From NCBI GenBank assembly GCA_017645925.1, contig JAGCNN010000114.1:1-49276 (forward strand): a stretch of 49,276 nucleotides of DNA, written 5' to 3'. The position numbers were made by a program, and so were the translations under genes. Below the pieces are notes generated by a model. It was not told where the DNA came from, ran no database searches, and saw only the letters and a program-made list of their open reading frames with translations. This stretch comes from Bacteroidales bacterium (GTDB lineage: Bacteria > Bacteroidota > Bacteroidia > Bacteroidales > ML635J-15). Positions 6,422 through 43,470 of the stretch are shown piece after piece (the stretch's first letter is position 1; every line of letters begins with the position of its first letter).

Positions 6422-6444
6422 AAAATTTGCTCGCGACATTTTTT

Positions 6445-6684
6445 ATGGAAGAAATTCACATTGGAAATATGATAAGGCAGGAACTGAAACGACAAGGTCG
6501 GACAGTCACTTGGTTCGCCGCCGCCATACATTCCGACCGCAGCAATACCTACAAGATGCTGAAAAAGCCGAGCATAGACCTTGCCTTGCTGATAAAAATT
6601 TCGGAACTACTGGGACACGATTTCTTAAAGGAATGCTCAAAGAAATTGATAATTTTTGAGCAAACCGAAAGCAGAACAAAATAA
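6445..6684 (+). CDS. Small helix-turn-helix regulator
   Basis: A 79-residue protein from the ATG at 6445; an in-frame TTG at 6427 is possible but lies inside the upstream repeat motif. It reads MEEIHIGNMIRQELKRQGRT at the start, then an HTH core with VTWFAAAIHSDRSNTYKML as the two-helix motif, and ends in a basic tail. This resembles a small XRE/Cro-like family common in Bacteroidota. Its stop lies two bases from the stop of the convergent toxin gene. The large inverted repeat directly upstream suggests its expression is controlled by RNA folding or autoregulation. The target is unknown. Confidence 0.8.
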   Translation: MEEIHIGNMIRQELKRQGRTVTWFAAAIHSDRSNTYKMLKKPSIDLALLIKISELLGHDFLKECSKKLIIFEQTESRTK

Positions 6685-6686
6685 AA

Positions 6687-6998
6687 CTAATGCAAATTTG
6701 ATGTGGCTATAATCCCATCAATCACAACAAATTGTCCATCAATATGGAAAATAATATTCCATTTTCTGTTTTTTGTAATTAGACGTTTGGCCTGTGGATG
6801 AAGTTGCTTTGCTGTTTGCCACTGCGAAAACTGCATAGCATCAGCAAGCAAAGGATTTGAGAGTTCTCTTATTTCATCAAGCAATTGGTCGGTATATTTC
6901 ATAGCCAGATTTTCTGAAGCTACCGAAGTTATATATTGGGTGATTTCAGCCAAGTTATTCCAAACATTGTCAGTAACAACAAGCCTATATTTTTTCAT
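6687..6998 (-). CDS. ParE/RelE-like toxin of a type II toxin-antitoxin pair
   Basis: 103 residues with the layout of the RelE/ParE fold: an N-terminal strand (YRLVVTDNVWNNL), a two-helix hairpin (AEITQYITSVASENLAMKYTDQLLDEI by position) and C-terminal strands ending KRLITKNRKWNIIFHIDGQFVVIDGII. Basic residues R92-equivalent in the KRLITKNRK strand fit this family. The start overlaps the upstream partner's stop by 14 bases, the usual arrangement for translational coupling of toxin to antitoxin. Whether it targets ribosomes or gyrase cannot be told from sequence. Confidence 0.8.
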   Translation of the reverse strand: MKKYRLVVTDNVWNNLAEITQYITSVASENLAMKYTDQLLDEIRELSNPLLADAMQFSQWQTAKQLHPQAKRLITKNRKWNIIFHIDGQFVVIDGIIATSNLH

Positions 6999-7149
6999 AG
7001 TGCTTCTTTACTGCATTTTTCAAAGCGACTGCAAAATCTTCGAATGGTCTGCAATTAGCAGGCATATCAGAACAATCCTCTGCTTTTCTTGTAGCTTGCA
7101 TGGACTTTATTGCTATTTTATTATTTGTTACTGTTGCAGTTGCTGGCAT
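6985..7149 (-). CDS. Putative antitoxin, 54 residues
   Basis: The start is taken at MPATATVTNN (7149) because a TATCTTTG promoter lies just upstream at 7169-7176; an upstream in-frame ATG at 7203 would lie ahead of that box. The product has no recognisable DNA-binding motif. It ends with an amphipathic stretch (FEDFAVALKNAVKKHYEKI) that could wrap around a toxin. The antitoxin role is inferred from the order, the 14-base overlap with the toxin gene and the size, not from family similarity. It contains two cysteines in an unusual middle section (EDCSDMPANCRPF). Confidence 0.6.
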   Translation of the reverse strand: MPATATVTNNKIAIKSMQATRKAEDCSDMPANCRPFEDFAVALKNAVKKHYEKI

Positions 7150-7168
7150 ATTCGAAATAATTTTGGGA

Positions 7169-7199
7169 CAAAGATAAATATTTTTCCTGAATTGAAAAA
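7169..7199 (-). promoter_or_regulatory. Promoter of the toxin-antitoxin pair
   Basis: On the minus strand a TATCTTTG -7 box (7169-7176) is preceded after exactly 19 bases by TTTT (7196-7199), three of four matches to the -33 TTTG. It lies about 20 bases before the antitoxin start. Confidence 0.55.
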
Positions 7200-7259
7200 A
7201 CAAATCGTAATTCTAAATCGTAACCTTTAGCTCTGCGAAGCCAATTCTTAAATTCCCCT

Positions 7260-7363: not shown

Positions 7364-7402
7364 GGCATTGCTCAAGTGAGGTTTTATAGTGTAAATATGC
7401 CT
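7364..7402 (+). promoter_or_regulatory. Hairpin leader, copy 1
   Basis: Opens with GGCATTGCT and closes with AATATGCC, so GGCAT and ATGCC can pair. The closing arm contains the ATG (7397) of the first tiny ORF. A second copy lies at 7548-7582 with the same order of blocks (GGCATTGCT, TTTTTAGTG or TTTTATAGTG, AATATGCC). Confidence 0.6.
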
Positions 7403-7522
7403 GATTTTATTTGTGTTAACATGAAAAAAGGACCTGAAATAGACGAAATTCTCGACTGGATGATTCCTGATGAAGATGCCAGAGCAGAATACGATGAAGA
7501 TGGATATGATTATGACGACTAA
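7397..7522 (+). CDS. Candidate peptide precursor 1, acidic, 41 residues
   Basis: A 41-codon ORF from the ATG in the hairpin arm; an internal ATG at 7421 would give 33 residues. It begins MPDFICVNMKKG, has a hydrophobic patch (EILDWMIP) and ends in a striking acidic tail with three tyrosines (EYDEDGYDYDD). It stands in the RiPP-precursor position upstream of a radical SAM maturase, in the same orientation. No family is recognised. The acidic tyrosine-rich tail could be a core peptide. It could also be a short regulatory ORF. Confidence 0.5.
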   Translation: MPDFICVNMKKGPEIDEILDWMIPDEDARAEYDEDGYDYDD

Positions 7523-7547
7523 TATCCTAAACTTTTTCAAGTTATAA

Positions 7548-7582
7548 GGCATTGCTTGAATTAGTTTTTAGTGAATATGCCT
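7548..7582 (+). promoter_or_regulatory. Hairpin leader, copy 2
   Basis: Repeats copy 1 with GGCATTGCT, TTTTTAGTG and AATATGCC. Here the ATG in the arm (7577) opens only eight codons (MPKFKNLN) before TAA at 7601-7603, one base before the ATG of the next ORF. That spacing would allow coupled re-initiation. Confidence 0.6.
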
Positions 7583-7604
7583 AAATTTAAAAACTTAAAT
7601 TAAG

Positions 7605-7715
7605 ATGAATATATCTTACGAAGTTGTTGAGTATTCGGAAGTAATCAATGTGACAGTATCGTTCGGTTGTTATACTAGGTGCTGTACAAATGTTGATTAT
7701 CAAGGTGAATACTAA
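7605..7715 (+). CDS. Candidate peptide precursor 2, 36 residues with a C-x3-C-C cluster
   Basis: Begins MNISYEVVEYSEVINV, then TVSFG, and ends with GCYTRCCTNVDYQGEY. The acidic first half could be a leader and the Cys/Tyr-rich end a core for radical SAM cross-linking; all three cysteines (22, 26, 27) lie in the last 15 residues. It directly precedes the maturase gene, separated only by an intrinsic terminator. It is too short for family assignment, and the precursor role is inferred from size, position and composition. Confidence 0.55.
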   Translation: MNISYEVVEYSEVINVTVSFGCYTRCCTNVDYQGEY

Positions 7716-7723
7716 AATTAACA

Positions 7724-7760
7724 GGGGTTGCATTTTTAAATTATTTGCAACCTCTTTTTT
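7724..7760 (+). terminator. Intrinsic terminator/attenuator between peptide and maturase
   Basis: The stem GGGGTTGCA (7724-7732) and TGCAACCTC (7746-7754), with one G-U pair, is followed by six Ts, 11 bases before the maturase ATG. A partial terminator here would make peptide mRNA more abundant than enzyme mRNA. Confidence 0.75.
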
Positions 7761-7771
7761 AATTCAAAACT

Positions 7772-9103
7772 ATGGAACGCAATAAAACTATAGATATAAA
7801 TAAGCGATATAATTTTCCAGAATGGTGCATAAGACAATACAATGGTAAATATTTGGTAATCTGCAGTGAAACAGCAAATTGGATTGTCCTTGACAACGAA
7901 CAACAACTAGATTTCTTTAAATCCCTGACCGAACATACTATAAATGATGCAATAGCCATCACTAAATGTCCAAAGGATGACTATGTAAATGTTCTGATAC
8001 AAATAGAAGCAAAGCACCTTGAAGAAAAAAATGTCCAGCCTTCGTTTGTGGACAAGCTATCGCTACATTTTTACATAACTAACGTTTGCAATATGAAGTG
8101 TCCGCATTGCTATATGAGGGCGGGTTCAGCATTAACAAACGAGTTGACAACAGAAGAAATATTCAATGTTTTGGAAGATTTCAAAAAGGTTGGTGGCATT
8201 GATGTTACTTTTACTGGTGGAGAAATTGCTACACACAAAAATATAGTTGAAATAATAAAGTTTGCACACGAGCTTGGGTTAGAAATAAAATTGCTTACAA
8301 ACGGAACTTTGTGGAGACCCGACATGATTCAAGAAGTCGCTCCTCTCATTTCATATGTACAATTTAGCATAGATGGTTTTGACGAAAGCTCCAATGCAAA
8401 AGTCAGAGGGGTAAAAGCATTTAATAAGACATTGAAAACAGTTGACCTTTTTGTTGCTGCTGGAGTTAAAGTAATAGTGGCGATTACCCCATTTTTTGAC
8501 AGTGAATTCGAAAGCAATATTCATAACTATGTTGAGTTTATAAAAGACCTTACGGCAAAATATCACGGAGAAGACTTTATTGTTAGAGTTTGTACGGAAA
8601 TGTTGGAAGGTAGGGAAATCAGCCTAAACGAAGAAGAAAAAGTAAAGTATAACGAACTAACGACTAAAATATATTCGGAATATTATGGAGTAGATTTGTA
8701 TGACTATCCATTTATTAGCAAAATGAGGCAAAGGCGAATAATGGAGAATTGCATATATGGTGAAATTTCTATTTCTGCAAATGGTGACGTATTTTTCTGC
8801 TCAAGAATTCCATCTGTTCCAAGTATTGGAAATGTAAAAGATATTCCATTTGAACGTATTGCAAAACTATCGCGTATCATTCACGAAAAATCAAATATCA
8901 ACAATCTTAGACCCTGCAAGGATTGTGAACTAAAATACTTGTGTGGAGGTGGATGCAGAATAGAATATTTTGGAGAACTTACATCGTGCAAGGACATTGA
9001 ACATTTAGATGTAAATGATATTCCCCCAAGAAAATGCACAAAAGAATACAAAGAATCATTCTACGATTTAATGATTCGCACAAACACTAGAATTTTTCAA
9101 TAA
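7772..9103 (+). CDS. Radical SAM/SPASM peptide maturase with N-terminal PqqD-like (RRE) region
   Basis: 443 residues. Residues ~15-90 follow a PqqD-like RiPP recognition pattern (FPEWCIRQYNGKYLVIC, then NWIVLDNEQQLDFFKSL and a helical end). The radical SAM core binds its [4Fe-4S] cluster through C106, C110 and C113 (CNMKCPHC) and has FTGGE at 147-151. The C-terminal SPASM domain carries C327, C343, C382, C385, C391, C395, C406 and C422, including the CX2CX5CX3C pattern, enough for two auxiliary clusters. Family knowledge says such enzymes cross-link or otherwise modify short ribosomal peptides. The two tiny upstream ORFs are the natural substrate candidates. No transporter or protease is adjacent. 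An anaerobic sulfatase-maturase-like role is less likely because no sulfatase is near. Confidence 0.88.
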   Translation: MERNKTIDINKRYNFPEWCIRQYNGKYLVICSETANWIVLDNEQQLDFFKSLTEHTINDAIAITKCPKDDYVNVLIQIEAKHLEEKNVQPSFVDKLSLHFYITNVCNMKCPHCYMRAGSALTNELTTEEIFNVLEDFKKVGGIDVTFTGGEIATHKNIVEIIKFAHELGLEIKLLTNGTLWRPDMIQEVAPLISYVQFSIDGFDESSNAKVRGVKAFNKTLKTVDLFVAAGVKVIVAITPFFDSEFESNIHNYVEFIKDLTAKYHGEDFIVRVCTEMLEGREISLNEEEKVKYNELTTKIYSEYYGVDLYDYPFISKMRQRRIMENCIYGEISISANGDVFFCSRIPSVPSIGNVKDIPFERIAKLSRIIHEKSNINNLRPCKDCELKYLCGGGCRIEYFGELTSCKDIEHLDVNDIPPRKCTKEYKESFYDLMIRTNTRIFQ

Positions 9104-9128
9104 GTATAAACATTTAAAAATTAGGATT

Positions 9129-9377
9129 ATGTTAGATTTTTTACTAGACTTGGCAAACATTTTTATTGGCGGTGCCAACAAGACTATAAATGAATATTCA
9201 AATGCCAAAAAAACAGGTCAAAGTGTGAATAAATACAATGTTGCAATGACAGCTGCGAATACTGCAAAAAGTAGCGCAAAACGTTATAGTGCATACGTAA
9301 AGCAACATAATGCAGAACTTATCGCAAAAGATGAGGAGGCACGAAGAAAATACGAAGAAGAAAACCAGCAAGACTAA
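9129..9377 (+). CDS. Small lysine-rich protein downstream of the maturase
   Basis: 82 residues, starting 25 bases after the maturase stop, so probably in the same transcript. It begins with a hydrophobic segment (MLDFLLDLANIFIGGANKT), then turns polar and alanine/lysine-rich (KYNVAMTAANTAKSSAKRY), with a charged helical end (EEARRKYEEENQQD). No family is recognised. It may be a membrane-associated accessory or immunity protein, or unrelated. Confidence 0.6.
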   Translation: MLDFLLDLANIFIGGANKTINEYSNAKKTGQSVNKYNVAMTAANTAKSSAKRYSAYVKQHNAELIAKDEEARRKYEEENQQD

Positions 9378-9439
9378 GGTAAGGATTATGGATTGAAAAC
9401 CACATATAGTTTTACGTTTTCAAACAGACAAAATGCAAA

Positions 9440-9473
9440 GGAATACATCAAAAATGGTGTATTCCTTTTTTTT
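9440..9473 (+). terminator. Intrinsic terminator closing the radical SAM locus
   Basis: A ten-pair stem GGAATACATC/GGTGTATTCC with one G-U pair and a six-base loop is followed by eight Ts. It lies 63 bases after the small lysine-rich gene and marks the 3' end of the operon. Confidence 0.85.
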
Positions 9474-9606: not shown

Positions 9607-10734
9607 TTATATTGCTTCAAGCCAACGCGAAAAGAAAACATCATCAACAGAATATTCTACACCATCAAGGCTAACTTCGGCATTTAGCAATTCCTTTTCG
9701 CAAAGAGATTCAACTAGTCGTTTTGAAACTGATGCTCCACCAATTTTATAGCGCTTCAAAAAATCAGCGGCTGTAATTTGTCTTACACTGCCTTCCTTGG
9801 CCACTGCAATTAAGAAATCCCATTGCTTGTCGGTGAGCATTTTACGGTATTGCAAATATACAGGTTCTCGCTGGCTCAACACTTGTCCGCAAGCTTTTTT
9901 TACTTCGGGTATATCAATATTTTTCTGCCCGTTTGCATAAATAGTGTGACAGAGAAATTGTGTATAGTATGTATGCCTTTGCGTCCATTCAAGGATGAAA
10001 TTAACGGCATCATCTGTAATTTTCCGTTTGTGTGCTGAAAATTGCTTGCAAATGAAATCGGAATAATTTGTGGCGGAAATTTTGTCGATTGAAACAAAAG
10101 ACGTGCTTGAATAGAATGGTTTACGTGCATTAGTAAAAATATCAGTCATCAAATGTTTCCTGCTACCGCTGAAAATGAAAGTTACATTGTTGCACCGTTG
10201 CATATAGGTCCGCAACATTGCTTCCATATTTTGTTCAGGATATTCTCGTATTTGCTGGAATTCGTCTATCGCAAAGACAATATGAACATTTTGTGAAGTC
10301 AATAATTCAAACAGACTGCGCAATGTGTATTCTTTCTCTGATTCATTGTGATATGCTATCTGAAATTGCGGTTCACCAGTTATTGAATCGTATGTTACCT
10401 GTGGTCGCAACGACTTGATGAAACTCATCAAACGTTCACCAATTTTTGTTTTTGTAGGAAATGCTTTAACAGCAGCTTCCGCAAACAATTTAATGAAATC
10501 ATCAAGATTACGCGATATAAAAATGTCCAGATACACCGTAAATATTTCGGGATGCGTTGAATTTAGCTCGTCAAAAAGGCGAAAAACAAGACCTGTCTTT
10601 CCCATGCGACGGCGAGAAACCAATGTCATGTCTGTTTTATTGATGCAATTTTGTAACATTAATTGCAACTCTTCTTCGCGGTCGCAAAAAAACTCTTTCG
10701 ATTCGTATGATTTTATTACAAAGGGATTTACCAT
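9607..10734 (-). CDS. AAA-type ATPase (archaeal ATPase_2-like) with C-terminal winged-helix region
   Basis: 375 residues. The start MVNPFVIKSYESKEFFCDRE is typical of this Bacteroidota/archaeal ATPase family. The P-loop is the variant SRRRMGKT at 40-47; Walker B is VFAIDEFQ with D157 and E158; a sensor-like strand reads FIFSGSRKHLM. The last ~100 residues look like a winged helix (QWDFLIAVAKEG, then RQITAADFLKRYKIGGASVSKRL). The cellular role of the family is poorly defined. The gene stands alone, is bounded on both sides by the same 33-bp repeat, and has a consensus promoter whose -33 box lies inside that repeat. This suggests an autonomous cassette and possibly autoregulation. Confidence 0.85.
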   Translation of the reverse strand: MVNPFVIKSYESKEFFCDREEELQLMLQNCINKTDMTLVSRRRMGKTGLVFRLFDELNSTHPEIFTVYLDIFISRNLDDFIKLFAEAAVKAFPTKTKIGERLMSFIKSLRPQVTYDSITGEPQFQIAYHNESEKEYTLRSLFELLTSQNVHIVFAIDEFQQIREYPEQNMEAMLRTYMQRCNNVTFIFSGSRKHLMTDIFTNARKPFYSSTSFVSIDKISATNYSDFICKQFSAHKRKITDDAVNFILEWTQRHTYYTQFLCHTIYANGQKNIDIPEVKKACGQVLSQREPVYLQYRKMLTDKQWDFLIAVAKEGSVRQITAADFLKRYKIGGASVSKRLVESLCEKELLNAEVSLDGVEYSVDDVFFSRWLEAI

Positions 10735-17888: not shown

Positions 17889-17940
17889 AATCATAATTGT
17901 GAAATGGTGAAAAAAAATTTGAAAGCAGCAAGGCATTGTC

Positions 17941-18165
17941 TTCTTTTTCAAAGACAACAGGGACAACAAATGACAACATTTTTTTTCTGGATGAATTGCA
18001 TGGTTGTCCAAAGTTGTCAAGGTTGTCTTCTTTTTATTTGCAAAGCTATGAATTGTGTTGAGCCGCAAAATTTTGCGGCTGTACTAGTAGAGATGTTGCG
18101 CGCAACATCTCTCAGATTCCCCAAATATTCAATGCCGTCCAATGTTGTCCAATCCCTTGCTGCTA
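17941..18165. repeat. Dispersed intergenic repeat, copy A
   Basis: Order of modules: GACAAC-rich run, a spacer with GAATTGC, the opposing TTGTCC/GGTTGTC-rich run (together an inverted repeat), AGCTATGAATTG, the palindrome AGCCGCAAAATTTTGCGGCT (18061-18080), GTACTAGTAG, and a 24-bp palindrome with arm AGAGATGTTGCG (18089-18112). The same order occurs at 36601-36850. It fills most of the gap between gldF and the surface-protein gene. The rest of the gap (18166-18390) shows only AT-rich leader DNA and the ribosome binding site. Confidence 0.75.
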
Positions 18166-18390
18166 CTGGGTTTGGCGATAATGAAACATATAATTTATCT
18201 ATGCAATTATGATAATATTGTTGTTGTTTTATCTACGGGGGAGGGTATTTCGTATAATAGTATTTGTTTACCTATAATCCAAACTTGATTTAATTTTTTA
18301 AAATGATATTTTCGCGTAGCAATTTTTCTTAGGAGACGTTGTTGGTAACTTGTTAATAATTAAAACAATATAAACAATAGGAGAATAAAA

Positions 18391-24270: not shown

Positions 24271-27200
24271 ATGAGAAGGTTATTTTTGTTAGCATTATTG
24301 GTTCTATTTACCTTGCCAATATTTGCAAAGCATGTTGATGTCGAAACTGCCCAAACCGTGGCAAGATCGTTCATGTCACAGAACTTAGGTGTATCAACAC
24401 GTGCTACATTCAGCGACGTTACATCGCAAACAGAATTCACAAACTTCTACATCTTCAACACCGATGGCGGTTTCATAATCGTGGCGGCCGACGACATTGC
24501 AACACCAATACTTGGTTATTCGGACGCTGGTATTTTCAATCCCAACAACATTCCGGTAAATATGCACGAGTGGCTTCTCGGCTATGACCGCGACATCAGC
24601 TTGGGCATAAGCAACGGCGTATCGGCATCACCAGAAATTGCCGCCGACTGGAGAAAATTGGTTAGTGGAATAGCTGTTTCGCAAAAACGTAGCAGGTCGG
24701 TAAATGCACTTGTACAGACAAGGTGGAATCAGGGTTCGCCGTACAACACCTTTTGTCCCTACGACACCGACGAAGGCGAGCGCACGGTAACAGGTTGTGT
24801 TGCTACAGCTATGGCGCAGATAATGAAATATTGGAACTACCCTGCTCAAGGTAATGGTTCGCAAACATATACACATTCCCGATATGGAGAGTTGAGTGTA
24901 ACTTTCGGAAGCACAACCTACGATTGGAGCAACATGCTGAATACTTATACCAATTCAGCTACTGATGCACAGAAGAATGCTGTTGCAACATTGATGTACA
25001 GCTGCGGCGTGGCTGTAAAAATGTCGTATGGAGTAAGCCGCACAGGCGGTAGTGGCGCCGTAACCGTAGGTCCATACAATGGAACTGCCGAATATGCAAT
25101 GGAGAACTTCTTTCTCTACAAGAATACGCTTGAAGGCCGATTCAGAAGCGACTACGAAGACACGGACTGGAAAAATATGATAATAGCAGACCTTGATGCC
25201 AGCAGACCAATCATTTACACAGGTAGAGGCGATGGTGGCGGACATTGCTTTATCTGCGACGGCTACAACAACAACAATCAGTTCCATTTCAACTGGGGCT
25301 GGGGCGGATACTGCGATGGTTTCTATGCAATCAATAGCCTTGAACCTGGTACTGGTGGTATTGGTAGCGGCAACGGAACATACAACGATAGCCAGTCGGC
25401 AATATTTGGAATAGAACCCAATGCCGGTCTCTTTGCTATTCCAAACGCACTTACCCTTTCGGGAGTCGGTGAAAGCAAGACTTTCATGGTTCGCTCCAGC
25501 ACAGCTTCAAACCAATCATGGACGGCAACTTCAAGTCAGTCGTGGTTGACACTTAGTCCAGCCACAGGAGCAGGTAGCGGTTCAAATACTACTGTTACTG
25601 CTACAGCCGAACGCAACAACACTGCATCGGAACGCACGGCAACCATAACAATAACGCAAGGAAGCTCAACAACTATGGTAACCGTTGTTCAGCCAAGCGG
25701 TATTCCCAACGACCCAGGTTGCTTCGGAGTTGATGGATACGATTCATTCTTGATTCTTGAACCCGGCAACATGGTTATAGAATGTGGTGAAGGTTTTGGA
25801 TATTACACCACTGGACATCAAATTACTAAGGTCAAATTTTCAAGTCTTGATGGTGCCGCAACTACAAACTATACCGATTACACAAACAAGAGTTTTACCA
25901 TAAAGATTTACGAAGGTGGAAGCAAAGAATCGCTCAGCAGCGGATATACATCGAATATTGCAGGCGCAATGGGAACTCAGGTATATTCACAGAACTTTAC
26001 ACAGCCCGATTTTGGGGAACAGGAAGTAATCCTCAACACTCCTTATACTATTGACGAAACTAAAAATTTCTGGGTTGTACTGGTGGCAAATGGAAAATCT
26101 CTTATTAAAGAAAAGTGGATTGACTATGGAGAGCCCATACCAAGAGACAACTATGAAAGTAGTTTAGCTGCTTATGATGGCAAATATCTATATACAGACA
26201 CTTATGAAGGAACTGATTATCTGAATGTAAGCACTACAGCATACTACACCGACGAAAGCCGTGCTTATCTACAAATATGTTCTGTAGATTTTTTGCTGAC
26301 ATTCTGTACTGTCAATCCGGCGTTGCTTATGGTAACACCTGAAACTCTTAACTTTGAAGCAACTGGTGAGACTAAAAACTTCACCGTCAAGGCGAACGAT
26401 AATGTGTCGGCAAACTGGACGGCTGTTTCAAGCGAAAGCTGGCTAACCCTTTCGGCATATTCGGGAAGCGGAAACGGAGCAACGACAACAGTTACCGCTA
26501 CAGCAGCAGAAAACATAAGTGGTGCCGACAGAGAAGCAACAATAACCATAACCCAAGGTTCAGAAACAAGAGTTATCACTGTTACACAGCCCGATGGTTC
26601 GATTGCCGACATAAACAGATGGTATGGAAATATGGCACCTAATAATATGTATATTTTAGAAGAAGGCAATCAGGCGATTATAAGACCGGAAAAATATGGC
26701 AATTTTACAGCGGGCAGCCAAGTAACAAAAGTTAGATTTGAAACTTATAATGGTGCACGTTTACAAGGTTACAGCGACTATGTCAACACGAGCTTTACAA
26801 TTAAGATATACGAAAACAATAGCGTAAACTCTGCTTTAACATCATCTCCCGGATACACATCAAATATTAATGCTTGTATAGGAACTGAAGTATATTCACA
26901 GAATTATACATCGGAAAGTTTTGCAGATAACGATTATGACAAAACTCATATAGTTGAACTTAACACCCCATATACAATACAGGATGGTGTCAATTTCTGG
27001 ATTGCAGTCGTTGTAAATGGTAATACTCTATTCGATTATGATAGGGTATCTTCGGGTGAACCTATTCTTTCTTCGGAATACAATTCGAGCATGGCTGTCG
27101 CAAGAGCCAACGGAAAATATTTGTATGTAGATACTTATTCTGGTACTGACTATCTAAACATGAATAACATTACTTATACAGATGGTGATTACAATAATAC

Positions 27201-30200
27201 ATATTCAATGAATTTCGACCTCTCCTTCTATGTGTCCGATGGCATAACTGCTTATGTGCCGTCTTCCGACTTCGAGGCAAAAATCTATGGAGAGGATAAT
27301 TACTTAATTAGAAATGCTGTTTCCATTGGAGCAACCGATAATATTGTATTGTATTCAACCGCAACAAACAACGGACCCGACAATGCGGTGCAGCCATACG
27401 GAATAACATTGAAGTTAGGTTCTGAAACCTTGGACGAACGTACAATCAACCTTTCGGAATCAAGTCCTTTATCAGTTGGCTATAGAAGAGGTTTCTCATA
27501 TACAATAACAGCCGAACAACTGAACCAAATGCTGGCAACGGGAACTTTCGACATTTGTTTTTCAATTGATTATTCCGGACAAGATGTAAATGAGACTAAC
27601 AATACCTATTGCATAACTATAATCCGTGAAAATCCGACTTTTACAATTTCGGCCAGCGCACAGCCTACAGCAGGAGGCAGTGTAACGGGAACAGGAACCT
27701 ACGAATTGGGCGAAGGAGTAAACCTTGTGGCAACCCCAGCAAATGGCTATCTTTTTACCAACTGGACAGAAAACGGAACTGTTGTCTCAACAAATGCAAA
27801 TTATCAGTTTACAGTAACCTCAGACCGTACACTTGTAGCAAACTTCACACAGAGAACATACAACGTTACTGCAACTGTTGACCCTGCAAACAGCGGTACA
27901 ATCAGCGGCAACAACAGCCCTTATACTTACGGAGCAAATGTTTCGCTTACCGCAAATGCTAATGACGGATATACATTCATAAACTGGACTGACGAAGATG
28001 CCAACGTGGTTTCAACCAATGCAACATATCAGTTTGCAATTGACGGCAACAGAACACTAGTTGCTCACTTCGAAAGCGAAGAGTATGAAATAACAGCAAC
28101 CGCAAATCCTAGCGCAGGCGGCTCAGTTACTGGTGCTGGAACTTTCCAATATGGAGAGCAGGTAACACTTACAGCAACAGCAAACGAAGGCTACAATTTT
28201 GTAAATTGGACAGAAAACGGCACTGCTGTTTCTACCGATGCTGAATACTCATTTACGGCAACAGCAAACCGCAATTTGGTTGCAAACTTCCAAATCAATA
28301 GCTATAATATTTCTGCAACAGCAAATCCAGTAGCTGGTGGAACTATCAGCGGTGCGGGCAATTATAATCACGGTCAAGCCGTTAGCTTGACAGCAACCGC
28401 AAACATAGGCTACAATTTCGTCAACTGGACCGAAAACGGCACGGTCGTTTCTACGAATACGACATATTCGTTCACAGCAACAGCCGACAGAACCTTGGTT
28501 GCCAACTTCGAAGCAATTGTATATAACATTTCGGCAAGCGCAAGCCCTGTTGAGGGAGGAACAGTTGCTGGTGCTGGAGATTACAACTACGGTCAGGATG
28601 TAACGCTTACGGCAACCGCAAATACAGGTTACTCATTCACCAATTGGACTGAAGATGGCTCAGTTGTTTCCTCCAATGCAAACTACACATTCACAGTATC
28701 AGGAAACAGAACTTTGGTTGCTAATTTCGAAATCAGCACCTATACCATTACTGCAAGTGCAAATCCAGTTGCTGGCGGTACAGTTAGCGGTGCCGGAGAA
28801 TACACTCACGGACAATCTGTTACTCTCAACGCAACAACAAATACTGGTTACAACTTTGTAAACTGGACAGAGAACGGCTCAGTTGTTTCTACAGATGCTG
28901 AATATTCGTTTACAGCAGAAGCAGACAGAACTTTGGTTGCAAACTTCGAAGCAATTACCTACACAATCTCAGCAAGTGCAAACCCAGTAGAAGGCGGAAC
29001 AATCAATGGTGCAGGTGATTATACCTACGGACAGAATGTTACTCTTAATGCAGTTGCAAACGCCGGTTACACTTTTGTAAACTGGACCGAAAACGGTACT
29101 GAAGTTTCTACTGATGCAGAATATTCGTTCTCAGCAACGACAAGCAGAACCTTAGTTGCAAACTTCCAGATTAACACCTATACGATTTCGGTTACAGCCA
29201 ACCCTGCTGAATATGGAACAGTTAATGGCGGCGGTAATTATACTCACGGTCAAACAGTAACACTAAACGCAACAGCAAACACTGATTACTCATTTGTAAA
29301 CTGGACCGAAAACGGGAACATTGTTTCAACGGAAGCCGAATATTCGTTTACAGCAACTGCAAACAGAACTTTGGTCGCTAACTTTGCAACAATAACCTAC
29401 ACAATTACAGCAAGTGCAAATCCAACAGAAGGCGGAACAGTAAATGGTTCGGGTAATTATGCATCTGGTCAGACCGTAAATCTCAATGCTGTAGCAAATA
29501 CAGGATACAATTTCACCAATTGGACTGAGAATGGCTCTGTAGTTTCTACAAATGCAGAGTACTCGTTTACAGCAGAAGCAGACAGAACTTTGACTGCTAA
29601 TTTTGAACTCGTTAACTACACTATTTCGGCAGTAGCAAATCCTGCTGAAGGAGGAACAATCAATGGTGCAGGTGATTATACATACGGTCAGACGGTTAGT
29701 CTTTCGGCAGTGGCAAACACTGGTTACACATTTGTCAACTGGACAGAAAATGAAACTGAAGTTTCTACTGATGCAACCTACTCGTTTACTGCAACAGAAA
29801 ACCGCAACCTAGTTGCCAACTTCCAGATTAACACCTACACTATTTGGGCAAGTGCAAGCCCAGAAGAAGGCGGAACTGTAAATGGCGCAGGTAATTACAA
29901 CTATGGTCAGAATGTAACGCTTACAGCAACCGCAAACATTGGCTACACATTCTCCAACTGGACAGAAGGCACCGAAATAGTTTCAACAAATATTGAATAT
30001 TCGTTCAATGCAACAGCCGACAGAACCTTGGTTGCCAATTTCACAATCAACGGCTATACAATTTCGGCTACAGCCAACCCAACCGATGGCGGCACAATCG
30101 AAGGTGCAGGCGATTACAACTACGGTCAGACTGCAACTCTAACAGCAACAGCAAATACTGGATACCACTTTGTCAACTGGACCGAAAATGACAATGAAGT

Positions 30201-32529
30201 TTCTACTGATGCAGAATATTCGTTTACAGTAAACGAAAACAGAACCTTGGTTGCTAATTTTGAAATCAACACCTACACTGTTACGGCTGTTGCCGAACCA
30301 ACCGAAGGCGGAACTGTTACGATTGATGTTCCATCACAGGACGACATTTACAACTACGGAACCAACCTTGTTATTACAGCAACCGCAAACGAAGGATACC
30401 ATTTTGTTCAGTGGAATGACGGTGTAACTACAGAGCAGAGAACTTATATGGTTGATGCCAATGCTGAATTTATAGCATATTTCGTACAAAACGAAGCTGC
30501 ACAATACATAATTGCCGCAATCGCAAATCCAACCGAAGGCGGTTCTATTGAGGGTGCTGGTATATATCTTGAAAATGAAGACGTTATCCTCACTGCAACA
30601 GCAAATCCAAATTATCACTTTGTAAACTGGACAGAAGACGATGCTGTAGTTTCTACCGACGCAAGTTATTCATTTACGGTAACATCAAACAGAACTTTGG
30701 TTGCTAATTTTGAACTCAACACCTACATAATTACAACAATCGCAAATCCTGTTGAAGGCGGAGTATTATCTGGAGCAGGAGAATACCAACATGGTCAGAT
30801 GGTATCGCTGAGAGTAACTACAAATGCAGGTTACAATTTTGTCAGCTGGACCGAAAATGGTTCTGTTATTTTGAATACTCCAAGTTATTCGTTCCAGGCA
30901 ACTGCCGACAGGACTTTGGTTGCTAACTTCGAAGCAGTTACCTGCAATATTACAGCAAGTGCAAATCCAGAAGAAGGCGGAACAGTAACGGGTTCTGGCA
31001 ACTATGCATACGGACAGACAGTAACGCTCACCGCAACAGCAAACGATGGTTACATATTTGCCAACTGGACCGAAAATGGCTTCTTTGTTTCTAGCGATGC
31101 TGAGTATTCATTTACAGCAACATCCGGCAGAAATTTGGTTGCCAACTTTGGAGCAAGTAGCTATACAATTTCGGCTAGTGCAAACCCGATAGAAGGTGGT
31201 TCGGTAGAAGGCGCAGGCGAATATATTCCAGGTCAGACTGTACGTCTCAATGCTATCGCAAACGAAGGCTACACATTTGTCAACTGGACTGAAAACGGTA
31301 CTGTTGTTTATACAAATGCAAACTACCCGTTCACAGCAATATCCGACAGAAATTTGGTTGCCAACTTTGTGATAAATACCTACACGATTATTGCAAGTGC
31401 AAGCCCAGTTGCCGGAGGTACAGTAGATGGTGGCGGCGAATACACATACGGACAAACTGCGACCGTAACGGCAAATGCAAATACGGGGTACTCATTTGTC
31501 AATTGGACAGAAAACAATGAAGTCGTTTCGTCTGAACCAGAATATTCGTTTATGGTAACCAATGACAGGAGGCTTGTCGCAAACTTCAGCATAAGCACAT
31601 TTACAATTTCGGCAAGCGCAAATCCTGCTGAAGGAGGAACAGTGGAAGGTGCCGATGAATACACATACGGTCAGACTGCTACACTTAGGGCAACGGCAAA
31701 CGAAAACTACAACTTTACGAACTGGACCGAAGACGGCGAAGTTGTTTCGAGCGATGCTGAATATTCGTTTACAGTAACTGCCGACAGAACCCTTGTGGCT
31801 AACTTCATTTATAACTCTACTGTATATAACATCACAGCAACAGCCAATCCAACAGATGGCGGAACGATAGATGGAGCTGGCGAATATCGTGAAGGAGAAA
31901 CAGTTTCTCTTTCGGCATCTGCAAATCCAGATTATCACTTTGTAAATTGGACAGAAAACGACATTGTTGTTTCTGTAAATGCAGACTATTCGTTTACCGC
32001 AAGGGAAGACCGCAATCTTGTTGCTAATTTCCAAAAGGACAGATATACTGTTTATGTAACAACAAATCTTTTGGAAGCCGGTACAATAGAAGGTGATGGA
32101 GAATATGCGGTCGGAGAAACAGCAACTCTTATTGCTACAGCAAACGAAAACTACCGCTTCGTCAACTGGACAGAAGCAGGCGAAGAATTATCAACGGAAA
32201 CTGAATATTCATTTGTGGTAACCAGAGACAGATACATTGTGGCAAACTTCATTTATGAAATGTCGGTTGATGTAATAGAATTAGGTTCAATCTCCGTTTA
32301 TCCTAATCCGACACGCGGAATGTTCAAGGTTGGCTTCGGTTCAATCAACGGCGATGTTACCTGCCAGATTGTAAATGCAAGTGGCTCGGTTATCGAGACA
32401 AGGGAATTAAATGTAACCGACGGTTCCGAATTTGTCTTCGACTGCAATGTTGCTCCGGGCGTTTACTTCGTAAGAGTAATTTCCGATGACAGAGTATGGA
32501 CTGAATCTATCGTAATTAACAGATATTAA
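24271..32529 (+). CDS. Giant C10 cysteine protease with 21 InlB-like repeats and T9SS sorting domain
   Basis: 2752 residues. Signal peptide (MRRLFLLALLVLFTLPIFA), then a Spi-like propeptide and the C10 (SpeB/interpain) domain. The nucleophile is C176 in TVTGCVATAMAQ, the histidine is H325 in GGGHCFICDGY, and NWGWGG follows. Two BACON domains lie at about 385-477 and 683-774, each followed or separated by a module with LEPGN/LEEGN and IKIYE motifs. A CARDB-like domain covers about 998-1120. Residues 1123-2660 are 21 tandem units of ~73 residues (core GYNFVNWTENG...SFTATADRTLVANF). The end is a type A T9SS domain starting SVYPNPTRGMF. Extracellular protein degradation is likely. The repeat array is far longer than in typical C10 enzymes and may serve as a stalk or adhesin. 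It is paralogous to the next gene. Confidence 0.93.
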   Translation: MRRLFLLALLVLFTLPIFAKHVDVETAQTVARSFMSQNLGVSTRATFSDVTSQTEFTNFYIFNTDGGFIIVAADDIATPILGYSDAGIFNPNNIPVNMHEWLLGYDRDISLGISNGVSASPEIAADWRKLVSGIAVSQKRSRSVNALVQTRWNQGSPYNTFCPYDTDEGERTVTGCVATAMAQIMKYWNYPAQGNGSQTYTHSRYGELSVTFGSTTYDWSNMLNTYTNSATDAQKNAVATLMYSCGVAVKMSYGVSRTGGSGAVTVGPYNGTAEYAMENFFLYKNTLEGRFRSDYEDTDWKNMIIADLDASRPIIYTGRGDGGGHCFICDGYNNNNQFHFNWGWGGYCDGFYAINSLEPGTGGIGSGNGTYNDSQSAIFGIEPNAGLFAIPNALTLSGVGESKTFMVRSSTASNQSWTATSSQSWLTLSPATGAGSGSNTTVTATAERNNTASERTATITITQGSSTTMVTVVQPSGIPNDPGCFGVDGYDSFLILEPGNMVIECGEGFGYYTTGHQITKVKFSSLDGAATTNYTDYTNKSFTIKIYEGGSKESLSSGYTSNIAGAMGTQVYSQNFTQPDFGEQEVILNTPYTIDETKNFWVVLVANGKSLIKEKWIDYGEPIPRDNYESSLAAYDGKYLYTDTYEGTDYLNVSTTAYYTDESRAYLQICSVDFLLTFCTVNPALLMVTPETLNFEATGETKNFTVKANDNVSANWTAVSSESWLTLSAYSGSGNGATTTVTATAAENISGADREATITITQGSETRVITVTQPDGSIADINRWYGNMAPNNMYILEEGNQAIIRPEKYGNFTAGSQVTKVRFETYNGARLQGYSDYVNTSFTIKIYENNSVNSALTSSPGYTSNINACIGTEVYSQNYTSESFADNDYDKTHIVELNTPYTIQDGVNFWIAVVVNGNTLFDYDRVSSGEPILSSEYNSSMAVARANGKYLYVDTYSGTDYLNMNNITYTDGDYNNTYSMNFDLSFYVSDGITAYVPSSDFEAKIYGEDNYLIRNAVSIGATDNIVLYSTATNNGPDNAVQPYGITLKLGSETLDERTINLSESSPLSVGYRRGFSYTITAEQLNQMLATGTFDICFSIDYSGQDVNETNNTYCITIIRENPTFTISASAQPTAGGSVTGTGTYELGEGVNLVATPANGYLFTNWTENGTVVSTNANYQFTVTSDRTLVANFTQRTYNVTATVDPANSGTISGNNSPYTYGANVSLTANANDGYTFINWTDEDANVVSTNATYQFAIDGNRTLVAHFESEEYEITATANPSAGGSVTGAGTFQYGEQVTLTATANEGYNFVNWTENGTAVSTDAEYSFTATANRNLVANFQINSYNISATANPVAGGTISGAGNYNHGQAVSLTATANIGYNFVNWTENGTVVSTNTTYSFTATADRTLVANFEAIVYNISASASPVEGGTVAGAGDYNYGQDVTLTATANTGYSFTNWTEDGSVVSSNANYTFTVSGNRTLVANFEISTYTITASANPVAGGTVSGAGEYTHGQSVTLNATTNTGYNFVNWTENGSVVSTDAEYSFTAEADRTLVANFEAITYTISASANPVEGGTINGAGDYTYGQNVTLNAVANAGYTFVNWTENGTEVSTDAEYSFSATTSRTLVANFQINTYTISVTANPAEYGTVNGGGNYTHGQTVTLNATANTDYSFVNWTENGNIVSTEAEYSFTATANRTLVANFATITYTITASANPTEGGTVNGSGNYASGQTVNLNAVANTGYNFTNWTENGSVVSTNAEYSFTAEADRTLTANFELVNYTISAVANPAEGGTINGAGDYTYGQTVSLSAVANTGYTFVNWTENETEVSTDATYSFTATENRNLVANFQINTYTIWASASPEEGGTVNGAGNYNYGQNVTLTATANIGYTFSNWTEGTEIVSTNIEYSFNATADRTLVANFTINGYTISATANPTDGGTIEGAGDYNYGQTATLTATANTGYHFVNWTENDNEVSTDAEYSFTVNENRTLVANFEINTYTVTAVAEPTEGGTVTIDVPSQDDIYNYGTNLVITATANEGYHFVQWNDGVTTEQRTYMVDANAEFIAYFVQNEAAQYIIAAIANPTEGGSIEGAGIYLENEDVILTATANPNYHFVNWTEDDAVVSTDASYSFTVTSNRTLVANFELNTYIITTIANPVEGGVLSGAGEYQHGQMVSLRVTTNAGYNFVSWTENGSVILNTPSYSFQATADRTLVANFEAVTCNITASANPEEGGTVTGSGNYAYGQTVTLTATANDGYIFANWTENGFFVSSDAEYSFTATSGRNLVANFGASSYTISASANPIEGGSVEGAGEYIPGQTVRLNAIANEGYTFVNWTENGTVVYTNANYPFTAISDRNLVANFVINTYTIIASASPVAGGTVDGGGEYTYGQTATVTANANTGYSFVNWTENNEVVSSEPEYSFMVTNDRRLVANFSISTFTISASANPAEGGTVEGADEYTYGQTATLRATANENYNFTNWTEDGEVVSSDAEYSFTVTADRTLVANFIYNSTVYNITATANPTDGGTIDGAGEYREGETVSLSASANPDYHFVNWTENDIVVSVNADYSFTAREDRNLVANFQKDRYTVYVTTNLLEAGTIEGDGEYAVGETATLIATANENYRFVNWTEAGEELSTETEYSFVVTRDRYIVANFIYEMSVDVIELGSISVYPNPTRGMFKVGFGSINGDVTCQIVNASGSVIETRELNVTDGSEFVFDCNVAPGVYFVRVISDDRVWTESIVINRY
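27637..32250 (+). repeat. Array of 21 divergent InlB-like repeats inside the first C10 protease
   Basis: Unit length is about 220 bp, each unit encoding x-Y-T-I-x-A-x-A-N-P...G-G-T-V-x-G-A-G-x-Y...N-W-T-E...L-V-A-N-F. Unit 13 is irregular (TIDVPSQDDIYNYG, HFVQWNDGVTTEQRTY). Units differ enough at the DNA level to indicate an old array under selection. Confidence 0.9.
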
Positions 32530-32553
32530 AGAAGTTATTCGATTGTTATTATG

Positions 32554-32583
32554 AGGTGGATTCCAAGGAATCCACCTTTTTTT
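32554..32583 (+). terminator. Terminator after the first C10 protease gene
   Basis: An eleven-pair perfect stem AGGTGGATTCC/GGAATCCACCT with a two-base loop, followed by seven Ts. Confidence 0.9.
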
Positions 32584-32634
32584 ATTCCTTCGCAAAAAAA
32601 TCGCCAATCCAAAATAGTCAATCCAAAATTTGTT

Positions 32635-32642
32635 TATCTTTG
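32635..32642 (+). promoter_or_regulatory. Candidate -7 box TATCTTTG of the second C10 gene
   Basis: Matches TAnnTTTG, 82 bases before the ATG and downstream of the preceding terminator, so the two protease genes are probably separate transcripts. Confidence 0.45.
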
Positions 32643-32724
32643 CCATTTGTCTTTGCAGTCTTCCGTAGTGTAAAGACACATAGATTGCAAGTTATTAATA
32701 ATAAAGAGTTTAAATTTTTTAGTA

Positions 32725-35700
32725 ATGAAGAAAATAGTATTATTGTTTTTAATGCTGTCGTTAGGATTGTCGGTGTTCTGTTCACCGGTAAGCATCCAAA
32801 CGGCGCAGAGAGCTGCCGAGTCTTTCTGGGCTCAGATGAATGGTAGCAAAGTTTCGTTTGTAGGATCTCAAACGGAATTTACAGAATTCTATGTGTTTAA
32901 CAATCAGATTGGTGAAGGTTTTGTCCTCGTTTCAGCCGACGATATTGCCCATCCTATTCTTGGTTACTCCGACAAGGGTTCATTCAGAACCGATGTCCAG
33001 TTGCCTGTTAATGTAAGAGGTTGGTTCAAGGGTATATCAAAGGAAATAAGCTCAGCGGTTGAATTGGGCGTACAACAGAGCGAGGAAGTTCGTGAAGAAT
33101 GGAACAGCCTGCTCGAAGGAACTGCTTATCCAAAGCGTTCGACAAGGGCTGTAAGTGCTTTGCTAAGCACTACTTGGGATCAAGGTAAACCATACAACAA
33201 CCTTTGCCCCGCTGATGCTAATACAGACTCGTATTACGGTGGTCGTACCGTTACTGGATGTGTTGCTACTGCAATGGCTCAGGTTATGAAATATTGGAAC
33301 TACCCAACACAAGGATCAGGTTCTCACTCTTATTCAAGTTCATACGGAACATTGAGTGCAAACTTCGGCAACACTACTTATGATTGGACAAATATGCCTA
33401 ACAACTTGACAAACTACTCAAGTTCGGCACAGAAGACTGCTGTTGCAACACTTATGTATCATTGCGGTATTGCTGTGGAAATGAGTTACGACATAGCAGA
33501 AAACGGTGGTAGCGGTGCATATACAGTAGCATACGGAAATACTCCATGCGCTAAGAGTGCTCTTGTTACTTATTTCAAGTATAAATCATCAATTCAAGGA
33601 TTGTTTAGAGCTAGCTATTCAGACACCAACTGGAAGAACCTTCTGAAAGCAGACCTTGACGCAGGCAGACCTATTATGTATTCTGGTGCAAGCGATGAAG
33701 GTGGACATAGCTTTGTATGCGACGGTTACAACAATAGCGACCAATTCCATTTCAACTGGGGCTGGAGCGGAAGCTATGACGGATTTTTCTCTCTCAATGC
33801 AATGACTCCTGGTTCTGGCGGTATCGGTGGCGCTGGATACGATTTTAGCGAAGACCAAGATGCTATTATAGGTATTGAACCAGCAGGAATTACGGTTAGT
33901 CCTACAACGGTACAGCTTCCAAGTGCTGGCGGAAGCGCAACAGTAACTGTAACAGCAGGATCTGCATCCACATCGTGGTCAGCAACAAGCTCAGCAAGCT
34001 GGGTTTCTTTCACCCCGACAACAGGCAGCGGTAACGGATCAACAACAACAATGACTATTTCTGCTTCTGCAAACAACTCTAATTCAACTCGCAATGCTAC
34101 CATAACATTGACACAAGGAACTCAAACCGCAACTGTTACGGTTACCCAGTTGGATGCAGCTGCTGAAGCTTGCTATGTCACAAACGAAGACATTATGAGC
34201 GATGATTCTACTGCTACATCAGGCGTAGGTTCAAACATTTATTATTCTACTTATTTTACAAAAATTGCTGAAAAAATAGATGTAACAGGCAATTACACAA
34301 TTGACAAAATTACATTTCCCGACATGCTAAATACTGCAACCTCAGGAAATATTGCAATAAAAGTATGGAGTGCAACTTCTGCAGGTGCTCCAAATGCAGA
34401 ATTGTATTCAGCTAATGTAAGCATGACAACAATCAACAATGCGCTAACTACAGGACAACTGACTAACGGCACAACATGCTACTATGGTGCATACGAACAC
34501 ACATTGACTTCGCCAGTCGTAGCATCGGGTCCATTTTTCGTAGGCATTGACTTTACTAGCCTTGGCGCAGGAAACAGCTCCACTATGTCAAATGTAGTAT
34601 GCATTGCTGACAATCAAAACCACGACCTTGACAATACTGCTTATATCTATAGCATATACAGCGGATATACTGGATGGAAATTAATAACCAACTTCTTTGA
34701 AGGAGTAGATGAAGCTAAATTTGCTATTCAGGCACATATTTGTCCTACTGATGAACAACCGAATGTTCTTTCTGTTTCTCCATCAACTCTCAGCTACACA
34801 GCAGCAGGCGAAAGCAAGACTGTTACCGTTACAAGCAATGTTTCATGGACAGCAACCTCATCGGCAAGCTGGCTGACTTTAAGCCCCACTTCTGGTTCTA
34901 ACAACGGCACAATTACCGCTGTTGCAGCAGCAAACACATCAACCTCGCAGCGTACAGCTACAATAACAGTTTCTGCAAGTGGCGTAAGTTCGCAGACTAT
35001 CAGCGTAACACAGGCTGGTGAAAGCGGCGGCAGTGGAACTGGCGACTGCGTTGTACTGCACGAAGACAGATTTGATTCTCCAACCGTATATTCAGTACAG
35101 GACGATGGCGGCTATGTCTGCGGTAGCAATTCATACGGAGACCAAGCTAAAGCCGAATATTTTGAACTTTCAGGCAACTACAACATCACCAGCATTGATT
35201 TTGCATACGCAATTGACGGAACCGACGGAAGCGTTACTTTCAAGGTATGGGCAAACAATAATGGCACCCCCGGTAGCGAACTTGCTTCTCAAACAGTAAC
35301 TTTGTCGAACCTTTATTCAGCAGCAACTAGCCAAAGCGGAATTATGATAGGCTCTTATACTTGGACTTTGTCAAGCCCTGTTGCTATTTCCACCAACTTC
35401 TTTGCCGGATTTGATGTTTCAAGTGCAACAAGTTATATAGGTCTGCTTTCTACAGCACAAGGTAGCGGATACACCAATAGCTGCTACGAACTTTACAACG
35501 GAAGCTGGGGTGATATGTACACAAATTGGCAGGAACTCGATATTTCAATGTATGTACTGCCTACAGTATGCCCAACAGGTACAACTCCATCCTACAACCT
35601 CACGGTTTCGCCGTCATCACTCAGCTACACTGCTGATGGCGCAAGCAAGACGGTTAATGTTACAAGCAACACATCATGGACTGCAACATCATCGGCAAGC

Positions 35701-36400: not shown

Positions 36401-36429
36401 AAAAGGCGGATTTAGGTCCGCCTTTTTTT
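36401..36429 (+). terminator. Terminator after the second C10 protease gene
   Basis: A ten-pair stem AAAAGGCGGA/TCCGCCTTTT with a six-base loop and T-run. Confidence 0.9.
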
Positions 36430-36870
36430 GTTGGTCACAAAGACCAACAGAGTCAACCATTTTTATTGCAAGAAGGGCGTTATTTTATTTGTAGAGATGT
36501 TGCGTGCAACATCTCACGGATTCCCCAATGTTCAATGTTGTCCAAAGTTGTCCTGGTTGTCATCATTTGAATTTGTTGAGACGCAAAAATTTGCGCCCGT
36601 GCTAGCTTTTTTCTTTCAAAGACAACAAAGACAACAAAGACAACAAGGACAACATTTTTTTCGGTTGAATTGCGTGGTTGTCCAAGGTTGTCTTGGTTGT
36701 CTTCTTTTTTATTTGCAGAGCTATGAATTGTTTATGATGATAATTTGTTGAGCCGCAAAATTTTGCGGCTGTACTAGTAGAGATGTTGCGCGCAACATCT
36801 CTACGGATTCCCCAATATTCAATCTTGTCCAAGGCTGTCTTGGTTATCTTCCTTTATTTGTTTATGGCAA
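36429..36870. repeat. Dispersed intergenic repeat, copy C (double)
   Basis: Starts with the hairpin TGTTGGTC/GACCAACA (36429-36449), then a palindrome with arm GAGATGTTGC (36494-36515) and a decayed GACGCAAAA one. A full second module follows: GACAACAAAGACAAC run, opposing TTGTCC run, AGCCGCAAAATTTTGCGGCT (36751-36770), GTACTAGTAG and the 24-bp AGAGATGTTGCG palindrome (36779-36802). It fills the gap between the second C10 gene and the M16 gene. No gene is seen. Confidence 0.75.
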
Positions 36871-43071: not shown

Positions 43072-43224
43072 ATGGATTCAAATTTCATAAAGGCTGGACT
43101 TAAGATTTTGGCCGCAATAGCAGCAGTGGTAACTGGCGGAACACTCGCCAAGAAAGCCCATGAAGATTACAAGCGCGGAAAAGAACTGCAGGAATCAAAA
43201 CGCAGCAAACCCGTAGCGGGATAG
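43072..43224 (+). CDS. 50-residue membrane peptide
   Basis: Starts 25 bases after the previous stop. One hydrophobic segment (GLKILAAIAAVVTGGTLA, residues 9-26) is followed by a strongly basic tail (KKAHEDYKRGKELQESKRSK), so the C-terminus is expected in the cytoplasm. Last gene of the six-gene run. No family is recognised. Confidence 0.6.
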   Translation: MDSNFIKAGLKILAAIAAVVTGGTLAKKAHEDYKRGKELQESKRSKPVAG

Positions 43225-43239
43225 GTATAGTTTTGTTTT

Positions 43240-43364
43240 TCTCGGTTGCCTTAGGGCAACAACAGTCCACAAAGTTTGTATGTCTTCGCTTTGTACTTCG
43301 GTTGGAAGATTCTGGAACCTATTTTTTGGCAATCGTGGCATAGCAAGACATACTTGTGGACTGC
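43240..43364. repeat. Structured intergenic DNA with imperfect inverted repeat
   Basis: A GTTGCC/GGCAAC hairpin is followed by arms CAGTCCACAA...GTATGTCTT (43263-43286) and AAGACATAC-TTGTGGACTG (43345-43363), which pair apart from a five-base bulge. The ~58-base loop has no ORF of note. It could be a small RNA or a decayed mobile element end. Confidence 0.5.
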
Positions 43365-43404
43365 AATGGAATATGGGGAATACAAATATCCATTTGTTAT
43401 CATT

Positions 43405-43470
43405 GAAACAAAAGACAACATAAACAACTTTGGACAACAGTAGAGATGTTGCGCGCAACATCTCTACAAG
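43405..43470. repeat. Dispersed intergenic repeat, copy D (short)
   Basis: A short GACAAC run followed by the 24-bp palindrome with arm AGAGATGTTGCG at 43442-43465, identical in core to those at 18089 and 36779. The remaining bases to 43605 are an AT-rich leader with an AAAATGAG/CTCATTTT hairpin near 43503. Confidence 0.75.

Follow-up and report, generated by a model that had tools for sequence, protein, structure and literature searches.

Among described enzymes, the sactipeptide maturases StsB and SkfB, in which an RRE is combined with radical SAM and SPASM domains, gave the best profile match and the best structural match, respectively, to the peptide maturase of the locus described here; however, its score against StsB was 129.7 bits (1.3e-37) where the cut-off is 625, the precursor is unrelated and the gene neighborhood is different. 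The ranthipeptide maturases CteB/ScfB (SCIFF) and PapB share a seven-cysteine SPASM domain and a cysteine-rich core with this system, and CteB aligns with the maturase over nearly the full length, RRE region included (residues 16–441), but the SCIFF and PapB scores lie below the cut-offs, and the family core, C-[YF]-x2-C(C/D/E), contrasts with the six cysteines in 45 residues of SCIFF and the Cys/Asp repeats of PapA. A short Cys-containing precursor and an M42 peptidase in the cluster are also found in ChrA/ChrP, whose modifying enzyme is an MNIO rather than a radical SAM enzyme; ChrP is the precedent for an M42 aminopeptidase in a RiPP cluster (PMC11002830). Loci of the Bacteroidaceae branch of the family have, as constant neighbors, a homologue of RdrB from RADAR (RdrA/RdrB) and an SNF2 helicase with an ATPase like those of Zorya ZorD and Dpd DpdE, whereas RdrA was seen in only two loci of the branch and the locus described here is without RADAR or SNF2 genes. 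RADAR is not, to our knowledge, a system that uses a RiPP. RiPP mining of Bacteroidales has been published (PMC10352776), and earlier work has remarked in general terms that RiPPs and defense genes co-localize (PMC11118758, PMC12715929). The searchable literature contained no description of the combination of a radical SAM enzyme with SNF2, RdrB and M42 genes (subscription papers were outside its scope, and an earlier description is possible), and the defense-type loci of this branch appear to be undescribed so far.

The window, that is, the whole stretch of 49,276 nucleotides that was analyzed, is contig C177 of a Bacteroidales assembly (G000; 75% complete) from a gut-type Bacteroidales bacterium. 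The locus lies in a small island between pheS-like and dnaQ/dnaN-like housekeeping genes (named by reading of the sequence), where the gene for an HTH protein and a minus-strand RelE/ParE-like pair are followed on the plus strand by ORF1, ORF2, the maturase gene, ORF4 and a terminator. The four ORFs of the preliminary description (two tiny ORFs, a maturase and a small downstream protein) were all found, on the plus strand. The elements of the locus are as follows.

6427–6684, plus strand: small HTH protein, candidate regulator, with a 46% identical counterpart in the nearest related locus, L031
7259–7277, no strand: inverted repeat TGTGGTAAAATTTGCCACA, candidate operator, unique in the window
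7364–7401, plus strand: 5' leader copy 1, GGCATTGCT-N-ATATGCC, before ORF1 (pattern search of G000)
7421–7522, plus strand: ORF1, 33 aa, with an acidic Tyr-rich tail and protein-level conservation with L031
7548–7581, plus strand: 5' leader copy 2, before ORF2 (pattern search of G000)
7605–7715, plus strand: ORF2, putative 36-aa precursor peptide, MNISYEVVEYSEVINVTVSFGCYTRCCTNVDYQGEY, recognized through motif-matched ORFs beside the family maturases
7723–7761, plus strand: hairpin and T-run in the precursor–maturase gap, probable attenuator (−15.1 kcal/mol, z −5.2)
7772–9103, plus strand: radical SAM/SPASM peptide maturase with a predicted N-terminal RRE, 443 aa (Pfam, alignments, AlphaFold2 model, structure matches)
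9129–9377, plus strand: ORF4, 82 aa, with a hydrophobic N-terminus followed by a charged part
9437–9468, plus strand: terminator-like hairpin of the intrinsic type at the operon end

The counterpart of the HTH protein (E 1.8e-15) is encoded 5' of the corresponding locus in L031. The RelE/ParE-like toxin-antitoxin pair (6687–7203, minus strand) is placed between the HTH gene and ORF1, a position at which L031 has no such pair. A 375-aa AAA ATPase (9607–10734, minus strand) is AAA_14/ATPase_2-like in Pfam and had no match in PADLOC; AAA ATPases of this type are frequent in accessory islands. Elsewhere in the window, three mechanical ORFs (17904–18212, 36428–36751 and 43195–43500) have the string VEMLRATS in common, which suggests a dispersed intergenic repeat, and very large secreted-type proteins are encoded at 24271–36381 and 43606–49074, the first two of which carry N-terminal repeats resembling streptopain prodomains (by eye only).

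The maturase matched Radical_SAM (1e-24) and SPASM (1.3e-4) in Pfam, and the full set of cluster cysteines claimed for it earlier was borne out by an alignment of 18 homologues: the CX3CX2C motif (C106/C110/C113) was invariant, and the seven cysteines of the SPASM signature CX9-15GX4C..CX2CX5CX3C..C, present in canonical spacing (C327-x10-G338-x4-C343, C382-x2-C385-x5-C391-x3-C395 and C422), were kept in at least 90% of the rows. An AlphaFold2 model built from this alignment, with the plasmid-database row left out, had a mean pLDDT of 87.5, with values of at least 90 in blocks spanning residues 11–80. Strands at 19–23, 26–31 and 36–40 and helices at 43–52, 57–64 and 68–80 are predicted to make residues 19–80 an RRE-type winged-helix fold of three strands and three helices; the PqqD-like, RRE-like N-terminus of the preliminary description thus stood as a modeled fold, but Pfam reported no PqqD match. 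Foldseek and VIA-align ranked SkfB (6efn, the best match), SuiB and CteB high; TigE, like CteB, aligned from the N-terminal domain through the C-terminus, and anSME structures were also among the fold matches. Besides StsB, the closest NCBIfam profile, SkfB (87.8 of 300) and AlbA (78.3 of 850) were matched below their cut-offs; SCIFF and PapB were not among the best 25 profiles, and the related enzyme L043 scored 83.7 of 425 for SCIFF and 68.1 of 340 for PapB, again below the cut-offs. These scores place the maturase, as a relative of SPASM peptide maturases, outside every curated NCBIfam family, and since it falls far below every equivalog cut-off, no specific chemistry can be assigned.

Maturase homologues were found in Bacteroidales and on one Treponema plasmid, and a precursor–maturase pair with a recognizable common motif occurs in about twenty other loci. 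Identity to the maturase was 86% for the nearest relative (L031, assembly G006), 41% for L003 (G007), 42–43% for Prevotella veroralis (L032), 44% for a Bacteroidales MAG (L033) and 38% for the Treponema saccharophilum plasmid pTS1 (L034). Further loci came from members of the same family and the same genus as P. veroralis; the scan of the family yielded eleven matches, and scans across the class and the order added next to nothing. The Bacteroidaceae branch formed one group in the maturase tree (support 93/99); the deep order of the other branches and the position of Treponema were not resolved, and the outgroup branches were long. Inspection and clustering of the neighborhoods recognized no sulfatase beside the homologues, an arrangement that the preliminary description had named as speaking against its reading. 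The genomic setting of the locus differs between G000 and G006. A phage origin was considered and rejected: the phage collection contained no close relative, and two viral scans came back empty. A contig filed as viral in IMG/VR (L075) carries a full M42–precursor–maturase–SNF2 cassette and an RdrB-like gene, and may be bacterial or a mobile element.

ORF2 was found directly upstream of the maturase gene and on the same strand, with the 36 codons and the C-x3-C-C, tyrosine-containing tail described earlier; a strong hairpin separates the two genes. Its leader begins MNISYEVVEYS and its core is FGCYTRCCTNVDYQGEY. Comparison with the L031 counterpart, MEISYEVVEYSDAINVTLAFGCFTRCCTNVDWGGEY, gave a dN of 0.15 and a dS of 0.76, values that indicate purifying selection and conservation as a protein. 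Almost every homologous locus has an ORF of 33–45 aa beside the maturase gene, and these ORFs are laid out alike: a leader of alternating hydrophobic/aromatic residues, strand-like and N-terminal (e.g., ISYEV.E), is followed by a C-[YF]-x2-C core. This pattern is common to the window, L031, L032, L033, L039, L040, L041, L070 and the Bacteroidaceae branch. The precursors read MEINYRVEKKEDKRLFFGCFARCCKRVNAGAQGIL in P. veroralis (L032), MELMYVVEEDLCEVCTACYAQCCVNSHTGSESDYA in L033, MNINYEVESEYEEISAFCYASCCVNYLTNSNGNSYD in L070, MEIEYDVQEREKLEMGGSPCYSTCEVHCGAYSA in L040 and MKKKITFNWSEKKISDAERVGAMYCFKRCDVNQN in the Bacteroidaceae branch, and that of L041 begins MEISYEIQEKQELESVQMGGGCYTKCEVNVDYGADYWCC. 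The last ~14 residues are almost invariant in the Bacteroidaceae branch (GAMYCFK[RSN]CDVN[QRK]N); cores differ strongly within the branch of the window itself.

Under fixed rules, with patterns written after the family had been seen, a core-motif ORF was present within 1.5 kb of the maturase gene in 19 of the 21 family loci, versus 0 of 27 controls, which were other radical-SAM genes of the same order (Fisher p = 1.8e-11, a value that overstates independence because several family loci are close relatives). The contrast is stark despite the post hoc patterns and the near-copies, and makes it very probable that ORF2 encodes the precursor of a RiPP family not yet described; the preliminary description had proposed looking for short ORFs with the same tail in front of the homologues, and for ORF2 the outcome was positive. 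The two loci without a core-motif ORF are L003, whose candidate precursor departs from the motif (GCGCW, with the C-terminal end GCGCWGPWFTN), and the Treponema locus, whose two candidate peptides lie 3.1 kb downstream of the maturase gene and are off-motif. These Treponema candidates (L034, 9465–9750) stand in tandem 3' of a methyltransferase gene and have a common LTWNV leader, and one of them is Cys-rich (CFGCFNCCC). In L070 (7436–8374, minus strand), the precursor shares its reading frame with the C-terminal end of a Csx27-like membrane protein; this would be a true fusion or, alternatively, an internal start.

The upstream small ORF fared differently. ORF1 of the preliminary description exists, on the plus strand and with its acidic tyrosine-rich tail, but the 41 codons read from the ATG at 7397 gave way to 33 aa from the ATG at 7421, the start favored by the L031 alignment. 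The tail is identical in L031, and the last 25 codons differ by 10 synonymous and 0 nonsynonymous changes; this codon pattern marks ORF1 as a real gene. A precursor role for it found no support: it has no leader motif and no cysteine, and a homologue was found in the nearest relative, L031, and in none of the other loci. Support for the proposed RiPP locus and its new precursor family accordingly comes from ORF2 and not from ORF1. In L032 and L041 the maturase gene is followed by small acidic, aromatic ORFs that resemble ORF1 only loosely. ORF4 had no family match in profile searches; its positional counterpart in L031, a 68-aa protein with a similar hydrophobic segment at the start, showed no significant sequence similarity in tblastn. 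By these comparisons ORF4 is lineage-specific, and it is possibly a membrane-associated partner. In L003, L033 and L070, too, the maturase has flanking proteins that are small and hydrophobic or membrane-like.

The palindrome TGTGGTAAAATTTGCCACA had no second copy in the window at up to 2 mismatches (expected 0.00 in shuffles) and recurs in G006 before a second leader copy (L081); it may be the operator of the locus. The leader sequence, TTGAGTTGTTTGGCATTGCTC..GTGAATATGCCT, occurs in exactly two copies in G000, before ORF1 and ORF2; G006 has it before both small ORFs and, in addition, before two unrelated genes, one for a small P-loop protein and one for a small lipoprotein. The extra G006 modules are located in L085 (C51:148325–148360), which includes the end of the HTH gene, and in L081 (C3:2959–2994). 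Because these copies precede unrelated genes, the element is a genus-level regulatory module and no RiPP signature; GGCATTGCT..ATATGCC was thereby ruled out as a RiPP-specific element, and as a structured RNA it was unsupported (z between −0.4 and +1). The promoter-leader module is a regulatory front end that can be swapped between accessory genes of different kinds. The hairpin in the precursor–maturase gap was energetically significant in 14 of 16 family loci (z −2.3 to −7.3) with unrelated sequences, which fits a probable attenuator that keeps the peptide in excess over the enzyme.

The link of the family to defense genes in other genomes was missing from the first reading of the locus. The Bacteroidaceae branch has a cassette in the fixed order M42 peptidase, precursor, maturase and SNF2 helicase, with SNF2 3' of the maturase gene in every locus whose contig extends far enough, and a protein of ~880 aa adjoins the cassette wherever the contig continues. 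In L052 this protein matches RdrB of RADAR (PADLOC 1.5e-31; PDB 8fnv 2.7e-25), with a Pfam adenosine deaminase match (2.2e-12), and the other ~880-aa neighbors cluster with it or look closely similar. Since RdrB stands on either side and either strand, it is a constant neighbor rather than a fixed operon member. RdrA was recognized in the G1034 locus and, by clustering with it, in the G882 locus, and SIR2-like and further defense-type genes lie near the cassettes of this branch. RdrB relatives occurred in 4 of 201 Bacteroidaceae genomes, two of which carry the cassette; genomes without the maturase are among those with RdrB relatives, and G805 has the cassette and no RdrB match. Treponema pTS1 has an SNF2 gene directly downstream of the maturase gene, though this maturase lies outside the Bacteroidaceae branch. 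L070, which belongs to the broader group of the window and is without SNF2, has an M42 gene after the maturase gene and the Csx27-like membrane protein upstream, and L041/L051 have a PADLOC TmtA match downstream (8.9e-143). No M42, SNF2 or RdrB gene, nor any other of these neighbors, was found near the locus in the window or in L031, and G000, an assembly 75% complete, yielded no SNF2 relative. No transporter was noted among the cassette genes, and no exporter or immunity gene was recognized. Judged by gene order alone, a defense role is plausible for the SNF2/RdrB branch; for the copy in the window it is an extrapolation.

What can be stated most safely from these comparisons is that ORF2 and the maturase form a predicted precursor/enzyme pair of a new RiPP family. 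We go further with good confidence and see in the locus a minimal operon for a RiPP from a so far undescribed family of cross-linked peptides, part of which would have been recruited to anti-phage loci, with a chemistry and a function that we infer. The first ~10 residues of ORF2 (ISYEVVE) would dock on the RRE of the maturase as an extra beta-strand, after which the maturase, a radical SAM enzyme that has two auxiliary clusters, would modify the C-[YF]-x2-C(C) core; the hairpin after ORF2 would maintain the excess of peptide over enzyme. That the product is cross-linked at all is something we infer; the modification would most likely be at least one thioether (sactionine- or ranthionine-type) cross-link from the cysteines, a choice favored, by a modest preference, because of the fold class and the conserved cysteines, and the main alternative would be that the conserved Tyr/Phe takes part in an aromatic cross-link. 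In sister loci, the M42 aminopeptidase would probably trim the leader up to the cross-link; for the window locus, the leader peptidase would be encoded elsewhere. In the Bacteroidaceae branch, the modified peptide would belong to a module with the SNF2 helicase beside a RADAR-type RdrB, which makes anti-phage defense or its control the likeliest function of that branch.

A stronger version, which we put forward tentatively, would make the modified peptide an essential part of a new anti-phage system: the maturase and M42 would produce a peptide that is a signal, cofactor or inhibitor for the SNF2 helicase and the RdrB-type deaminase, and the window locus would be a slimmed relative in which the small membrane-associated protein replaces these partners. 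It is also conceivable, short of probable, that the modified peptide is not exported but, by a logic like that of PQQ or mycofactocin, is processed to a small molecule of fixed structure, which would be a cofactor derived from the peptide or a signal inside the cell. The near invariance of the last ~14 residues in the Bacteroidaceae branch, unlike fast-evolving bacteriocins, the M42 aminopeptidase in the cassette and the lack of a transporter among its genes agree with such a product, as does the length of the family precursors, which are short enough for M42-type peptidases; however, cores are strongly variable in the branch of the window, and no cofactor-using enzyme was identified. The same variability would suit an antimicrobial or signaling peptide for which the nearby defense genes are coincidental island neighbors, and so would the different settings of the locus in G000 and G006, as in mobile bacteriocin loci, and the co-localization of RiPPs and defense genes without functional coupling discussed by others (PMC12715929, PMC11118758). 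We consider this explanation rather unlikely, given that SNF2 follows the maturase gene in all far-reaching contigs of the Bacteroidaceae branch as well as on the spirochaete plasmid, and that neither an exporter nor an immunity gene was recognized.

Two further explanations concern the substrate of the maturase. ORF1 and ORF2 could form a two-peptide system in which both are substrates and ORF1 is cross-linked through Tyr/Asp/Glu; the common 5' leader before these two ORFs and nowhere else in G000, the perfectly kept ORF1 tail in L031 and the acidic aromatic small ORFs of L032 and L041 speak for it, whereas the missing leader motif and cysteine, the restriction of ORF1 homologues to L031 and the use of the same 5' leader before unrelated genes in G006 render it improbable. 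That the maturase modifies a protein rather than a peptide, like a sulfatase-type maturase, is hardly credible: anSME structures are among its fold matches, but the homologues adjoin neither a sulfatase nor another common protein substrate, an RRE is present, and a short Cys-containing ORF stands beside nearly all of them.

The preferred reading, a precursor/maturase pair of a new RiPP family, would give human- and animal-associated Bacteroidales a family whose leader is unusually short and whose core motif is simple and open to testing, and in which a recurring arrangement of genes ties a modified peptide to the SNF2 helicase and the RdrB deaminase. If this is true, a RiPP would be a working part of bacterial antiviral immunity.
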